Source: a virus. From it: a stretch of DNA of 58,003 bases. The translations under genes and the position numbers were made by a program. The stretch covers positions 1-58,003 of the IMG/VR virus record IMGVR_UViG_3300012988_000004. One strand, 5' to 3'. Below, piece by piece: positions 1 through 58,003 of the stretch (the first letter of the stretch is position 1; each line of letters starts with the position of its first letter). Below the pieces are notes generated by a model, which was not told the origin of the DNA, searched no databases, and saw nothing but the letters and a program-made list of their open reading frames with translations.

Positions 1-123
1 GTCTTGTTGATTAATCCAGGCACATCCTTCATTCCTATGATCTCTATGGCTGTGTTGGCCATGATCGCGTCCATATCCTCGCCATACATGGCACTGACCA
101 GGTTGAAGGAATTCACCAGCTGA
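1..123. repeat. terminal direct repeat, left copy
   Basis: These 123 bases are identical to 57881-58003. The repeat shows that the sequence closes into a circle of about 57,880 bp. It lies inside a gene that is continuous across the join, so it is most likely an assembly overlap rather than a biological terminal repeat. Confidence 0.95.
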
Positions 124-3597: not shown

Positions 3598-3801
3598 ATG
3601 ACATTCATTCAAGCGGTCGAACTAATGAAACAAGGCAAGAAGCTAACCCATCGATATTTCTCGGATAACGAATGGGTGACAATGCAAGGCAATCTAACCA
3701 TGATTTTTGAAGATGGCGTTAAATGCACACCTCAACAATTCTTAATGGATAGAACCGACTTAGTATGGGGCGAAGATTGGAGTGAGTTTGTTGGAAAATA
3801 A
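3598..3801 (+). CDS. putative Tad2-like (DUF2829) anti-Thoeris protein
   Basis: The 67-residue protein follows the DUF2829 layout: an N-terminal helix 'MTFIQAVELMKQGKKLTH', aromatic strands (NEWVTMQG, LTMIFEDG) and a C-terminal 'W-x-E-D-W' (VWGEDWSEF) in the place of the family's 'DLLAEDWE'. DUF2829 includes Tad2, which sequesters the signalling nucleotide of Thoeris immunity. The length is right for one domain. The match is by eye and the middle is divergent, so the family is probable and the function only possible. It lies in a plus-strand accessory block, where counter-defence genes would fit. Confidence 0.42.
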   Translation: MTFIQAVELMKQGKKLTHRYFSDNEWVTMQGNLTMIFEDGVKCTPQQFLMDRTDLVWGEDWSEFVGK

Positions 3802-4164: not shown

Positions 4165-4258
4165 GGGATAACGGCGATGGAGTGTTTTACCATTTGCCTA
4201 AGCAGCAGGGACTAACCTGACGGGCTGAATTGCGGGGTTCGATTCCCCGTTTATTCCA
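4165..4258 (+). tRNA. tRNA-like remnant
   Basis: Bases 4233-4249 form a perfect T-arm: a 5-bp stem with loop TTCGATT. The 3' strand TTATTCC (4251-4257) can pair with GGGATAA (4165-4171). However, one extra T separates the T-arm from the acceptor strand, the D-loop is far too long and no 17-base anticodon arm with U33 forms. I therefore read it as a decayed tRNA or a copied 3' half (as in an attachment site), not a working tRNA. A 21-codon frame (4155-4220) also crosses its 5' half. Confidence 0.3.
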
Positions 4259-4310
4259 CTAATTAAAGGAAGTATGAAAGACTATCAACAAAACTTAAAG
4301 AATTGACAAG

Positions 4311-9322: not shown

Positions 9323-11013
9323 GCCGGTATATAAGCAGTTGAGCCATCAGAAGTTGTTATTTGAACCCATGTATATGGGGCGGTGTTTGTAGTTGCTGGT
9401 GAATTTGTTCCTAACAAAGCACTTCCCCCTCCAGTAGTATTGGTACCTCCGAACTTTATAACACGATTAAATGTCCATAGACTACTTGAGACAGTATAAA
9501 TATCATTCGTGCCGTCATTAAAAGTATATACATCAACATTCGTTGCACGATGCCGCCATGCTTTTGTACCACCTGTATTAAACACTATAACATCAACATT
9601 TGTACCTGAACTACTAAATGTACTGGCAGGGGAGCGAAGAGCTATTGTGGATGAACCTGTAAAATCGGCAGTAGTTCCACTCTGGAATAAATCTCCATTA
9701 TATCTAATTCTAAATCTATCTGAAGATGCTGATTGCAAATGCATTAAATAATCGGCCGATCCTGTTGTACTCCATGTTGGATTTGTACTAATAAGCTCCC
9801 TTCCTTGCATCCCAACTGGAAAAGTTGATGTTAAATATAACGATCTGGCAACCTGAGCACTTGTACCTGATCCAACAACAAAACTTCCGCCAATTTCAAA
9901 TAGATTATAAACATCAGCATTTCCTCCACTTCCGTTTGATCTTCCGGTAATCGTTGGATTTATTATAAAATGATCTTGTCCTGAAGCTGTCCCGGTCCAG
10001 CTTCCTCCCATCGATGAACCTTGAGTATTTAAAACCCAACTGATTGTATTGTTTGCCTCACTATAAGAACTTGCTCCAAAAATTATACTCCCTTTGGTTG
10101 CATGAGAAGTTGATGAAAGCGTTAAATTATTACCCGATGCTGTTCCGCCAATTACACTTTGTCCTCCTGATTTTCCGGTTGAAAGATCTGCTGTTAACGT
10201 TCCTGATGTGTTGGTTAGACCAGTACTGATTGTTAATGTCAGAGCATCTACATAACCTGTGGTTGCAATTGTACCATTATTAGTCCCAGGTGGTTGTGTT
10301 GTTGCTGTCATCCCATTCGCTAAAGCACCTGCATTGATAGAAGCGGCTGGCAATCCTGTTGCATTAGTCAAGGTTAGGCTAGATGGTGTTCCACCTGAGC
10401 CGTTAAACAAAACAGGAGCACCAGCACTACCAATGTTTACTCCTAATGCAGTTTGAACACCCGTGCCGAAAGTGATTGTTGATTGTTTAGCATTTAAGGC
10501 TGTTTGTAAATCAGTTTGATTTGAAAGTGTACCCGTAATAGAACCCCATGCTCCGCCTGAACTACCTAAGAAAATTTGAAATATATTATTAGGCTGATCA
10601 TACCAAACTTTCAATACCTGATTGGCCTGAATATCTCCTGACGAAAGTGCTGTATAAGATCCGCTTACTAGCTTCTGAAGATTTACTGCTCCATAACCAT
10701 TAATATTCAGTGTTGAAGCTCCGCTATTGCCATTCTGAAATTGGATCTCAAACAGACAATTGGAGTAACTTGTTATCGCTGAAGATGTAGAAACATAAGT
10801 ATTGGTCCCTGTCGCTACTAAAGGCAATACTGATAGCTTACTATAAGCTAAATCATTAAAATCTCCACCAATTCGTGCAGCAGTGTTTTGTCCGGGCCCA
10901 GCACTGATTACAGTATTACCATTGGCTATAAGTTGTGCATCTGTCTTTGCCTGACCAAAGCATGCCAACGAGATAAAAGATAAAATTCCAATCAATATTT
11001 TTTTCATAATCAC
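9313..11013 (-). CDS. large secreted fibre-like protein
   Basis: The 566-residue protein begins with a Sec signal peptide (MKKILIGILSFISLACFGQ; probable real start ATG 11007). A low-complexity Gly/Ser/Thr/Asn beta-rich body follows, as in tail fibres (TLNINGYGAVNLQKL; FGTGVQTALGVNIG), ending in a compact aromatic tip (TWVQITTSDGSTAYIPAWK). No peptidase S74 chaperone was seen. It lies after the head genes and before the SGNH lipoprotein. A receptor-binding fibre is likely, but the signal peptide is unusual for a virion protein and would also fit a secreted decoy or surface protein. Confidence 0.6.
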   Translation of the reverse strand: MIMKKILIGILSFISLACFGQAKTDAQLIANGNTVISAGPGQNTAARIGGDFNDLAYSKLSVLPLVATGTNTYVSTSSAITSYSNCLFEIQFQNGNSGASTLNINGYGAVNLQKLVSGSYTALSSGDIQANQVLKVWYDQPNNIFQIFLGSSGGAWGSITGTLSNQTDLQTALNAKQSTITFGTGVQTALGVNIGSAGAPVLFNGSGGTPSSLTLTNATGLPAASINAGALANGMTATTQPPGTNNGTIATTGYVDALTLTISTGLTNTSGTLTADLSTGKSGGQSVIGGTASGNNLTLSSTSHATKGSIIFGASSYSEANNTISWVLNTQGSSMGGSWTGTASGQDHFIINPTITGRSNGSGGNADVYNLFEIGGSFVVGSGTSAQVARSLYLTSTFPVGMQGRELISTNPTWSTTGSADYLMHLQSASSDRFRIRYNGDLFQSGTTADFTGSSTIALRSPASTFSSSGTNVDVIVFNTGGTKAWRHRATNVDVYTFNDGTNDIYTVSSSLWTFNRVIKFGGTNTTGGGSALLGTNSPATTNTAPYTWVQITTSDGSTAYIPAWK

Positions 11014-38103: not shown

Positions 38104-38784
38104 TTATTTTTTAAAGTAGTTGTCGTAAAATTCGAAACTTTCTGCGTCAAGTGTCTCTTTTAAAAATCCATTGTCGAGATGGATGTAGCGCAGCTTCACG
38201 TAATCGTCATCGTGGATTCGGTGGCCTCCACCGTCAATAGTCTTGCCCTGGCCGTGTTTAATGCCTATGGAATACCATTTGTCCGGCATCCAGATCATCC
38301 GGTTAGGTATTGTCTTCCAAAGATGAAGATCGAGATAAGGTTCAAGGTCAACAGGCCATATGAAGTCCATATCAGGCTTAATGAAGGTGTTCATGGCGCT
38401 GGAGCGGTTGTGGTGCTCCATGATGTAGTAAGCCTTCAGTTCGATATGGTAGTACATAGTCTTGGCGGTACCAAAAAGATCAGGTCTGCCAAGTTTATCC
38501 CATTGCGCTAGCATTACTTGGAGATAATTTGGTGAGTACCAATCGTCCGATTCCATGAAGGCAATCAAATCAACTCCTTTGTTTCTGAAATAATTGTAGC
38601 CAGTACGATATCGAGGCGTAATGTCCACATCATTGTCCTTCGGAGGATATAAAACCAAGTGAACCTCCATATCAATATTAACCGGAGAATCTTTTTCCTG
38701 AGCATTGATCATTCGAAGGCAGTTCTCCAAAAATCTTGGGCGATCACCGCGATCGGGCACAACAATTCCTAATTTTAAGTCCAT
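38104..38784 (-). CDS. glycosyltransferase family 2
   Basis: The 226-residue protein starts 'MDLKLGIVVPDRGDRPRFLE', a GT2-type N-terminus, and carries 'LIAFMESDDWYSPNYLQVML' with the metal-site S-D-D at 79-81. The second half is rich in His, Trp and Asp (GGGHRIHDDDYVKLRY). First glycosyltransferase of the cassette. It overlaps the homing endonuclease gene by 10 bases. Confidence 0.7.
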   Translation of the reverse strand: MDLKLGIVVPDRGDRPRFLENCLRMINAQEKDSPVNIDMEVHLVLYPPKDNDVDITPRYRTGYNYFRNKGVDLIAFMESDDWYSPNYLQVMLAQWDKLGRPDLFGTAKTMYYHIELKAYYIMEHHNRSSAMNTFIKPDMDFIWPVDLEPYLDLHLWKTIPNRMIWMPDKWYSIGIKHGQGKTIDGGGHRIHDDDYVKLRYIHLDNGFLKETLDAESFEFYDNYFKK

Positions 38785-39350
38785 AAAAATCCTCCTGCTG
38801 TTTTTCTTTTTTTATTGATGCAATCACCTATGTGGTGCCTCTTTATGCCAGTTGATATTGCTGCTTTAGCTATAGAATCAAATGTCTTAATTAACTCACC
38901 TGTTATTTTTCTTTGAGTGGCTTGCGTTCTGTTAAAAATTCTTCCAGTAACAGATGGTTTTCTTTTAAGAACATCATAAGAGTGCTGAACATTCTCTGAT
39001 GGAGTTGTCCATTCAAGATTTTTGTAATAATTGTTCAATCTATCTCCATCCTTGTGATTAACATGCGGCTTGCTGAATTTATTTTCAACAAATACTTCCG
39101 CAACTATTCGATGAGTAGAAAATGTAGTCCTGATTAAATTTTTTGTGAGAATTATCAAATGATAACCCATCCGCAAAGTGAATTTCAAAATTCTTGGTTG
39201 AGTATTGCAAACTCCACCGTGATGTAAATTGAATGCCTTCGGATAACTTTTAAACCTACCAAAAGAACTTACTTGATAAAGCCCTTCATAATTTGGAATA
39301 TCTTTCCAAACCTCAACTTCTCCTTTTTCCGGTCTTATTCCTAGTTTCAT
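38775..39350 (-). CDS. HNH homing endonuclease (NUMOD4-HNH-NUMOD1)
   Basis: Residues 13-40 are NUMOD4 (EVWKDIPNYEGLYQVSSFGR). Residues 80-127 are an HNH_3 nuclease (RIVAEVFVENK, HVNHKDGDRLNNYYKNLEW, TTPSENVQHS). The C-terminal part is NUMOD1-like (FDSIAKAAISTGIKRHHIGD). The first residues 'MKLGI' match the usual start of the cassette's GT2 proteins, suggesting the element entered near the start codon of the glycosyltransferase gene now beginning at 38784. Confidence 0.85.
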   Translation of the reverse strand: MKLGIRPEKGEVEVWKDIPNYEGLYQVSSFGRFKSYPKAFNLHHGGVCNTQPRILKFTLRMGYHLIILTKNLIRTTFSTHRIVAEVFVENKFSKPHVNHKDGDRLNNYYKNLEWTTPSENVQHSYDVLKRKPSVTGRIFNRTQATQRKITGELIKTFDSIAKAAISTGIKRHHIGDCINKKRKTAGGFLWT

Positions 39351-39430
39351 ATTTTCATTTTAAAAAACCGCCCTACCTGATAGGCGGTATCATTCCTTTT
39401 AAAACTTTCTAAATTAAACCTAATCATCAT
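39347..39430 (-). CDS. possible leader peptide, 27 aa
   Basis: A 27-codon frame (MMIRFNLESFKRNDTAYQVG...) runs through the terminator hairpin at 39361-39388 and ends with a TGA overlapping the ATG of the HNH gene. The coupling suggests ribosomes could pass through the hairpin region and affect termination. It may equally be chance. Confidence 0.3.
   Translation of the reverse strand: MMIRFNLESFKRNDTAYQVGRFFKMKI
39361..39388 (-). terminator. rho-independent terminator before the glycosyltransferase cassette
   Basis: On the minus strand ACCGCC pairs with GGCGGT (6 bp, 10-base loop) and is followed by six T. It separates the terminase block from the cassette. Confidence 0.75.
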
Positions 39431-39673: not shown

Positions 39674-40012
39674 TTATTTCTGATAAGTGCCTTGTACCCC
39701 ACGAAGTTTACGATCATCCGCACGTTTCTGAATCCACATCAATGCTTCATCCAGTTTTGTAATAACCATTGAAGTCTCGCGAGTCGCCATTGAGCCAACA
39801 TTAACGCTTTCCAAATATTGCTTGGCTGTTTGGATTAACGTCTCTGTGAAGAATCCTTCTTGTCGGAGAACTGTTTCATCTTCTTTGTTGCCTTTGCAGA
39901 AAACTATTTGTGTTCCGGCACCATCTTCGATGCCTTCATTTGTTACTTTGAAAGTAGGAACTTTATAAGTTGCTCCTTCAATTACTGTTTCGATTTGTCT
40001 TGGATTATTCAT
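39674..40012 (-). CDS. putative Acb2/Tad1-like nucleotide-sponge protein
   Basis: The 112-residue protein ends in a helical hairpin with the pattern 'RETSMVITKLDEALMWIQKR' then 'ADDRKLRGVQGTYQK', which I recognise from the Acb2/Tad1 hairpin family of phage proteins. Acb2 and Tad1 bind cyclic oligonucleotides and gcADPR and so block CBASS and Thoeris immunity. The N-terminal 50 residues are a beta region not found in minimal Acb2. Family assignment is by eye; ligand binding is an inference. Confidence 0.45.
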   Translation of the reverse strand: MNNPRQIETVIEGATYKVPTFKVTNEGIEDGAGTQIVFCKGNKEDETVLRQEGFFTETLIQTAKQYLESVNVGSMATRETSMVITKLDEALMWIQKRADDRKLRGVQGTYQK

Positions 40013-57091: not shown

Positions 57092-57324
57092 ATTCTTATA
57101 AATTCATGAAGTATTTCAGTTCCCTTTTCTTGATTGCATTTTTTGCAAAGCGTTATCAAATTATTCTCCCTATTAGTCCCTCCCTTTGCTAAGGGAATAA
57201 CATGATCGATAGTCAGCCATTCAGTATCCCCACATTTGCGACATTTATATCCATCACGTTCATAAATCTTCTTTCTTATATGTCTTTCAATTTTTCGTCT
57301 ACCATATACCTGATAATTCTTCAT
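57088..57324 (-). CDS. HNH endonuclease
   Basis: From ATG 57324 the 78-residue protein (MKNYQVYGRRKIERHIRKKI) is a single HNH domain: 'ERDGYKCRKCGDTEW' (zinc Cys pair), 'LTIDHVIPLAKGGTNRENN' (catalytic H) and 'LITLCKKCNQEKG' (second Cys pair). Such small nucleases nick DNA and can act as homing or packaging enzymes. Here it is the first clear gene of the early operon. A longer frame from 57399 overlaps the leader. Confidence 0.8.
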   Translation of the reverse strand: MKNYQVYGRRKIERHIRKKIYERDGYKCRKCGDTEWLTIDHVIPLAKGGTNRENNLITLCKKCNQEKGTEILHEFIRI

Positions 57325-57328
57325 TACG

Positions 57329-57700
57329 TCAATCAATTGCAGAGAATAGGAAACGGTAGGAAAGAAGGTGTAAGAAAGCAAGTTTCCCCCTACCCCCAAA
57401 GGAAGAAACTTGTTTCACACCATTGCATCGAATGAGGTAACCGTATAGTTTAAGTGAGGCTGGAATCGGGAAGCAAGTTTGTGAAAGCCCGTCTATTCCA
57501 TTTAAGTGATTTGTAACAAACCCTTCGATCAGGGGAGTGCATCTTTGAGTGGCAGCGGTCATAAGTGCTTCGTAAAGACCAAAAAAAGAACCCCTGACTT
57601 TAGGAGCTGCCTTTCCCGCAATCAGAGGTCTTAAGTTTTTGAAACCCGAAGTAAAAGTATTACTTTTTTTCGGATAGGCAGCAGATTCTTTAACAAACAT
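57329..57700 (-). CDS. open reading frame in the early leader, coding doubtful
   Basis: A 123-codon frame (MFVKESAAYPKKSNTFTSGF...) covers the region. Its ATG lies inside the -7 box TATGTTTG of a consensus promoter and so would not be transcribed from that promoter. It also runs through a hairpin followed by a T tract. The residues are protein-like, so it could be a real gene with another promoter, or a chance frame over a structured leader RNA. Confidence 0.3.
   Translation of the reverse strand: MFVKESAAYPKKSNTFTSGFKNLRPLIAGKAAPKVRGSFFGLYEALMTAATQRCTPLIEGFVTNHLNGIDGLSQTCFPIPASLKLYGYLIRCNGVKQVSSFGGRGKLAFLHLLSYRFLFSAID
57375..57412 (-). other. leader stem-loop
   Basis: CAAGTTTC pairs with GAAACTTG (8 bp) around a G-rich loop. 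A further AAACTTG lies upstream (near 57475), so two alternative hairpins could form. This suggests a switching leader in the early mRNA. Confidence 0.4.
57582..57629 (-). terminator. hairpin with T tract in the early leader
   Basis: On the minus strand CCTCTGA pairs with TCAGGGG (7 bp) around a 24-base loop, followed by TTCTTTTTTT. Flanking AAGACC and GGTCTT can form a competing stem around the T tract. Together with the promoter at 57694-57724 it defines a transcript of about 110 nt. Confidence 0.5.
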
Positions 57701-57724
57701 AATCTTATTTTTTAATGATGCAAA
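57694..57724 (-). promoter_or_regulatory. consensus Bacteroidota promoter of the early operon
   Basis: On the minus strand TTTG (57724-57721) is followed after exactly 19 bases by TATGTTTG (57701-57694). This matches TTTG-N19-TAnnTTTG at every fixed position. The -33 box lies inside an inverted repeat ATGAT-TTGC-ATCAT, a possible operator. Confidence 0.75.
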
Positions 57725-57741
57725 TCATCGTTTTTAAAAAG

Positions 57742-58003
57742 TTATACACATTTCTTCAACAATTCCACTTCCTTCTGCATTTTCTCCTCATTGAATACCC
57801 ACCAGAACAAGCATGCTTTGACGTTATGGGCCATTATCCCATCGCAATCCGTGAGCAGAAGTATGCCTCTCTCGAAGAAGGTCTTGTTGATTAATCCAGG
57901 CACATCCTTCATTCCTATGATCTCTATGGCTGTGTTGGCCATGATCGCGTCCATATCCTCGCCATACATGGCACTGACCAGGTTGAAGGAATTCACCAGC
58001 TGA
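57742..58003 (-). CDS. C-terminal part of the gene crossing the window ends
   Basis: The frame enters from the right edge and continues (NSFNLVSAMYGEDMDAIMAN...) to a stop at 57742. It is the 3' part of the 96-residue protein that starts at 152 in the left copy. The protein has an even mix of helices with a hydrophobic middle (ACLFWWVFNEEKMQKEVE). No family was recognised. Confidence 0.75.
   Translation of the reverse strand, partial: QLVNSFNLVSAMYGEDMDAIMANTAIEIIGMKDVPGLINKTFFERGILLLTDCDGIMAHNVKACLFWWVFNEEKMQKEVELLKKCV
57881..58003. repeat. terminal direct repeat, right copy
   Basis: Identical to bases 1-123; see the left copy. Confidence 0.95.

Follow-up and report, generated by a model that had tools for sequence, protein, structure and literature searches.

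A family of phage leader RNAs whose terminator loop pairs with the RNA's own 5′ end: a probable transcription brake in phages of Bacteroidota

In a 58,003-nt stretch of viral DNA (IMG/VR record IMGVR_UViG_3300012988_000004; hereafter the window) we studied a minus-strand locus comprising a promoter, a short predicted RNA and an intrinsic terminator ahead of a small HNH endonuclease gene. That this locus belongs to a new RNA family of Bacteroidota phages is strongly supported by covariation seen in its relatives. The conserved feature is a segment near the 5′ end of the RNA (A) that pairs with a complementary segment (A′) in the apical loop of the terminator hairpin, and covariation in relatives supports this pairing too. 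Probably the leader acts as an intrinsic brake on transcription, of a type not described before. Its best explanation, which we hold with reasonable though not high confidence, is a cis-acting attenuator whose terminator would be locked by the kissing interaction; regulation and attenuation by the leader are what we infer from its sequence and placement.

Results

The promoter TTTG-N19-TATGTTTG occupies 57724-57694, in intergenic DNA on the gene strand, and is the sole full match to the Bacteroidota consensus with a spacer of 18-21 nt in the 58 kb, which bears out the promoter call of a first-pass annotation made from the letters of the window. Another match to TTTG-N17-22-TAnnTTTG, on the plus strand at 39994, has a spacer of 22 nt and lies inside an opposite-strand gene. 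Since the TAnnTTTG box is found at -12 to -5 in Flavobacterium psychrophilum (PMC9723704), transcription is predicted to start near 57689. The -7 box precedes A by 11 nt, and the T run follows at +103 after the box. With a folding energy of -20.3 kcal/mol against -12.7 ± 2.7 kcal/mol in shuffled sequences (7 of 1000 as good), the hairpin before the T run would be expected to terminate transcription in vivo. The predicted RNA of about 108 nt agrees with the roughly 110 nt proposed earlier. The terminator sits between the promoter and the same-strand genes, 20 nt before a 77-codon frame and 257 nt before the HNH gene, the first recognisable gene downstream. Coordinates are collected in Table 1.

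The first-pass annotation had overlooked a complementarity between the apical loop of this terminator and GCTGCCT (57682-57676). The match with AGGCAGC (57612-57606) is a perfect 7-bp complement. A wider pairing, GCTGCCTATCC with GGAAAGGCAGC (57616-57606), has one mismatch; GGAAAGGCAGC spans the upper stem and the 8-nt loop, and a repeat of this kind occurs in 35 of 500 shuffles. The domain from GCTGCCT to its complement folds better than 995 of 1000 shuffles (z = -3.3). This pairing replaces the structural argument first offered for attenuation, which had invoked a competing AAGACC/GGTCTT stem and alternative AAACTTG hairpins: GGTCTT sits past the T run, so that the terminator would stay nearly intact, and nothing comparative was found in support of the AAACTTG hairpins. 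No ATG occurs between 57689 and the terminator, which speaks against a leader-peptide attenuator, and 57300-57760 holds no tandem repeat array of the kind that marks a type III toxin-antitoxin RNA.

Table 1. Features of the leader locus (all on the minus strand; window coordinates)
Feature	Position	Strand	Basis or remark
-33 promoter element, TTTG	57721..57724	-	sequence match
-7 promoter element, TATGTTTG (consensus TAnnTTTG)	57694..57701	-	consensus and position from PMC9723704
ATGAT-TTGC-ATCAT, a perfect 5-4-5 dyad that overlaps the -33 box	57715..57728	-	sequence; sole exact copy in the window
Predicted leader or small RNA, about 108 nt	57581..57689	-	promoter position and terminator
5′ segment A, GCTGCCT, complementary to the terminator loop	57676..57682	-	sequence
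Linker hairpin TCCGAAAAAAAGTAATACTTTTACTTCGGG, peculiar to the window member	57645..57674	-	sequence and folding
Terminator hairpin	57588..57632	-	lower stem 57632-57620 with 57599-57588
Terminator upper stem, GGGA/TCCT	57617-57614 with 57605-57602	-	folding
8-nt apical loop AAGGCAGC, containing A′ (AGGCAGC, 57612-57606)	57606..57613	-	sequence and folding
Terminator T run, 7 T	57581..57587	-	sequence
77-codon frame, ATG about 20 nt past the T run	57329..57561	-	where relatives have a gene start; codon usage non-coding-like
Small HNH endonuclease gene, 78 aa	57088..57324	-	PF14279/PF01844 and PHROG HNH matches; ATG 57324

The same layout recurs, with other letters, in FCV-1 (two copies), FCL-2, sniff9-2 (two copies), the Lillamy and Mumin phages, one IMG/VR contig, Cellulophaga phi10:1/phi19:1, Polaribacter P12002S/L and Flavobacterium 11b. 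In FCV-1 a full promoter, its spacer likewise 19 nt, is followed by a short RNA whose terminator stands directly before an HNH gene; here the 5′ segment and the terminator loop read GTAGTGC/GCACTAC. A second FCV-1 copy, at 35.87 kb, carries the kissing pair GTAGAGAG/CTCTCTAC. In FCL-2, which belongs to the genus of FCV-1, promoter, RNA and HNH gene are jointly missing at the corresponding site. A survey of promoter-terminator pairs brought up sniff9-2 with the pair GTGAGACG/CGTCTCAC, and pairing is preserved despite changed letters in its relatives morran (GTGAGAAG/CTTCTCAC) and snusmum/mumin/mymlan (GTGGAACG/CGTTCCAC) as well as in Cellulophaga phi19:1/phi10:1 (GTACGAC/GTCGTAC). The kissing letters also differ between two copies within one phage, as would be expected if each copy must pair with itself only. 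The distance from the T run to the start codon of the next gene is 0-20 nt in FCL-2, P12002S, 11b, mumin, copy a of sniff9-2 and both FCV-1 copies; in phi19:1 and copy b of sniff9-2 it is about 45 nt. The genes behind the leaders include replication-region genes and those for HNH endonucleases, a primosomal protein and small unknown proteins.

Across the family the RNAs are predicted to measure about 85-110 nt and to start 5-10 nt before A, some 4 nt past the box. The order is box, start, usually a 5′ hairpin (4-7 bp, A in its loop), an AU-rich linker, terminator, T run (80-105 nt after the box) and start codon; the hairpin that displays A is found in most, but not all, members. The terminator consists of a long lower stem, an internal loop, an upper stem of 4-5 bp and an apical loop of 8-13 nt carrying A′. 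Pairing of A with A′, as a kissing loop or pseudoknot, spans 7-11 bp, with duplex energies of -8.6 to -15.8 kcal/mol. A fold in which A and A′ pair to the exclusion of the terminator is some 4-15 kcal/mol worse than the terminator fold in most relatives and comes near it only in the window, P12002S and 11b. The window copy is a divergent member: box, A, A′, split stem and 8-nt loop are present, the 5′ hairpin is weak and a linker hairpin is added.

Two scans bear on the reality of the family. A promoter-anchored descriptor (promoter, A, terminator loop with A′, T run) was run over about 2 Mb (4.0 Mb counting both strands), and all its matches were phage: FCV-1, sniff9-2 and relatives, phi10:1, phi19:1, the window and L133, a distant relative of the window phage. 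On the reversed sequence it gave no matches. In one million further bases, half of them a Bacteroidales genome, it gave a single match, on genome contig L207, which has no exact box and which we take to be chance. A promoter-blind scan asked only for a terminator with an apical loop complementary to a segment lying 70-112 nt upstream of it; applied to 0.89 Mb of phage DNA, it returned 29 rows. These include the window, FCV-1, FCL-2, sniff9-2 (twice), morran, snusmum/mumin, phi10:1/phi19:1, P12002S/L and 11b, of which P12002S/L, 11b, FCL-2 and the second sniff9-2 copy are additions to the descriptor loci. At every distinct family locus a TAnnTTTG box lies 10-14 nt before A, exact except in phi10:1 (5 of 6 positions), and the weak remaining rows have no such box there; an exact box would fall by chance within a given 5-nt interval with a probability of about 0.004. 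Reversed sequence yielded 5 weak matches. Bacteroidota genome contigs (0.91 Mb) gave 28 structural matches and other contigs (1.16 Mb) gave 12, none of either with an exact box. Neither the window copy nor its relatives match Rfam 15 at the gathering threshold, the nearest approach being a weak one between the 3′ part of RT-14 RNA (RF02921) and the FCV-1 copy (26.3 bits, E 0.056; gathering score 48.1). Because the family loci of the promoter-blind scan carry the box and the matches in genome and other contigs have no exact one, we conclude from these sequence comparisons that the kissing-terminator leader family is real and, in the sampled sequence, confined to phages of Bacteroidota.

Covariation, the check called for at the outset, was found in the pairing of A with the terminator loop. 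It was counted only within a homologous set, as the unrelated members could not be aligned together by MAFFT. In five homologous RNAs, the second FCV-1 copy among them, all cells of 30 pairs (100%) hold standard pairs. Thirteen of the 30 pairs are altered on both sides, and 5 of these fall in the 8-bp kissing helix. No shuffle of 500 reached this level, and it was lost on sliding the partners by 1-3 columns. Covariation was likewise present in a four-sequence version of the alignment. A model of the homologous set (R1) gave one match in 395 Bacteroidota genomes, between two housekeeping-like frames and with no kissing pair, which we also take to be chance; its match at 30.2 kb in 11b likewise has no kissing pair.

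The 123-aa frame at 57700-57329, which overlies the RNA, starts within the -7 box. Its codon score (-0.027, against 0.036 at the 5th percentile of the phage's genes) is near the off-frame range, and profile and sequence searches found neither a family nor a homolog for it. The frame thus looks non-coding, in keeping with the earlier judgement that it is an unlikely product. The 77-codon frame (ATG 57561) ends 4 nt before the HNH start at ATG 57324, an operon-like fit, with a poor codon score of -0.047.

Other features of the locus and its relatives

A 123-bp direct terminal repeat (window 1-123 and 57881-58003) makes the contig a closed circle of 57,880 bp, and the joint is crossed by a gene. 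The phage is a myovirus, kin of Cellulophaga phiSM and Flavobacterium FCV-1 (terminase 41%, sheath 49%). With the contig circular and same-strand genes also upstream, one of them stopping at 57742, the label "main early operon" that had been attached to the downstream genes is unproven. The dyad overlapping the -33 box is a possible operator, a dyad this short being weak evidence. Elsewhere in the window, a strong terminator ACCGCCTATCAGGTAGGGCGGTTTTTT (39351-39410, minus strand) lies directly before a second HNH gene (38775-39350). A Tad2-like (Thoeris anti-defence) domain at 3598-3801 (plus strand; below the Pfam cut-off, E 2e-4) heads a short plus-strand gene group. At 4205-4260 (plus strand) CGGGGTTCGATTCCCCG and then TTTATTCCAC form an apparent 3′ half of a tRNA; no whole tRNA was found, and the half may be what is left of an attachment site.

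A conserved leader, AATAGTTRTAGGTAATCTTWAAACCTT..ATTATG, lies between T run and start codon in phages of Flavobacterium and Cellulophaga, and it also occurs in a crAss-like phage, there without the upstream RNA; the loci are L160 13637-13682, L165 about 241-284, L168 about 551-597, L163 about 10339-10384 and L169 about 654-700. Other Bacteroidota phage promoters with a terminated RNA of about 90-110 nt directly after a gene end, and no kissing pair, were seen at L154 14213, L155 28602 and L158 433. At about 11.95 kb in FCV-1/FCL-2 (L124 11940-12076, L156 11930-12063) a consensus-like promoter and a very stable terminator precede the head protease gene. The model matches this site, which has no kissing pair; it is a leader whose terminator is of a different make.

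Discussion

We favour the cis-acting attenuator because the start codon lies 0-20 nt past the T run in most relatives. Of the two readings first proposed, a small RNA or an attenuator, both were the right ones to weigh, and the relatives favour an attenuator-type leader. Pairing of A with A′ should coexist with the terminator, not compete with it, because the exclusive fold is so much worse in most relatives. In the mechanism we propose, a host-type promoter would begin transcription shortly before A, and the kiss would form as the terminator loop emerges from RNA polymerase, closing the RNA end to end and keeping the terminator in its stop form. By default the short RNA alone would be made and the downstream gene or genes held low. 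Some factor of a particular infection stage may then block or bypass the kissing-locked terminator and allow read-through, which in the window would express the small HNH gene together with those that follow it, perhaps preceded by the 77-codon frame.

Several observations weigh against this proposal. The 7-bp complementarity in the window, taken alone, has a modest P of about 0.03; the 5′ hairpin there is weak (-0.7 kcal/mol) and in L133 it is absent, and the linker hairpin of the window copy is an addition. No close relative of the window locus was found by sequence in phages, plasmids or IMG/VR, and covariation is thus that of the relatives. The kissing letters of the window, used as patterns in IMG/VR and genomes, gave chance matches only; terminase relatives in IMG/VR are fragments, and the largest (35.7 kb) and most others have no match to the early genes of the window. 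Moreover, the first recognised gene in the window begins 257 nt past the T run, the L133 RNA runs antisense to late genes and no gene follows it, and between the Lillamy and Mumin phages the RNA is retained while the downstream gene differs. The last three observations, together with the RNA's own promoter and terminator, are what a stand-alone small RNA acting in trans would lead one to expect. Here the kiss would make a compact, exonuclease-resistant RNA aimed at host or phage factors, and proximity to genes would be incidental. Such an RNA does not need a start codon 0-20 nt past its T run, as seen in most relatives; both loops are taken up by the kiss within the molecule, and they vary from copy to copy in a single phage, so that no common target seed is visible. 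We consider this reading, the main rival to the attenuator, unlikely, though it deserves to be kept in mind.

A riboswitch-like choice between two states, in which A pairs with A′ in an exclusive antiterminator fold selected by a ligand or protein, seems improbable. In the window the alternative with the extended pairing comes close (-28.0 against a minimum of -29.7 kcal/mol), is itself the minimum for transcripts of 88-94 nt and sequesters AAGACC, and the strong folding of the A..A′ domain fits it as well; the exclusive fold is nevertheless disfavoured in the relatives other than P12002S and 11b. More doubtful still is that the hairpin is the ordinary 3′ end of an upstream operon that happens to lie near a promoter, with chance complementarity. 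A same-strand gene does end at 57742, and the pairing tests confined to the window are modest. A full-consensus promoter intervenes between that gene and the terminator, however, and about nine phage loci unrelated in sequence show the same rare combination, with covariation where this can be tested. Translation of the 57700-57329 frame from a leaderless mRNA, with fortuitous RNA features, is hardly credible: its 123 codons are open and 4 nt separate the end of its 3′ part from the HNH start, yet its start codon overlaps the -7 box, on top of the codon score and the lack of homologs described above. A role specific to HNH genes was also considered and rejected; in the window, FCV-1 and sniff9-2 such a gene follows the RNA or a terminator, but elsewhere the copies stand before primosomal, replication-region and unknown genes.

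Attenuator leaders of the trp/pheA type, riboswitch expression platforms and ribosomal protein leaders share with the kissing leader a promoter, a structured leader and an intrinsic terminator directly before a gene. The present family differs from them in having no leader peptide, Rfam aptamer or conserved antiterminator, and in a terminator loop that would kiss the RNA's 5′ end. In lambdoid phages the late leader pR′-tR′ yields the 6S RNA and is released by Q, and HK022 has its put RNAs. The likeness here is a phage promoter and a short terminated RNA that heads genes, with read-through possible via a phage factor. A kissing helix is not known from the pR′-tR′ or put RNAs, and the kissing leader, unlike these, occurs many times over, ahead of a variety of genes. 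Type III toxin-antitoxin leaders (ToxI, AvcI) have the same order of elements, namely promoter, pseudoknotted RNA, terminator and then a protein gene; the kissing leader differs in that tandem repeats are absent, the pseudoknot takes in the terminator and the downstream genes vary. Hairpins upstream of the T-even homing-endonuclease genes (I-TevI, segB, mobE) sequester the ribosome site and keep expression low (PMC2988022). Both they and the kissing leaders are RNA structures just upstream of phage homing-endonuclease genes. The T-even hairpins act on translation, whereas here the structure is a transcription terminator and also precedes non-endonuclease genes. As for RT-14 RNA, only the terminator half of the FCV-1 copy resembles it, and the window copy does not match.

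There is perhaps an even chance that these leaders make up a new and widespread class of phage riboregulator. In such a class an intrinsic terminator whose apical loop kisses the RNA's own 5′ end would stand between promoter and start codon, ahead of genes for early functions, replication and homing endonucleases. Its kissing letters would be distinct in each copy to avoid cross-pairing, and the shape would perhaps be recognised by a single factor of phage or host. RNA control is almost unexplored in phages of Bacteroidota, which are the dominant phages of the gut and of bacteria that degrade marine particles. A leader family supported by covariation and absent from Rfam and present in many of these phages offers a concrete handle on the timing of early genes and on the restraint of homing endonucleases, in hosts that can be cultured (Flavobacterium, Cellulophaga). 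The family also poses a new physical question, namely whether a kiss between the terminator loop and the 5′ end of the same RNA may tune intrinsic termination.
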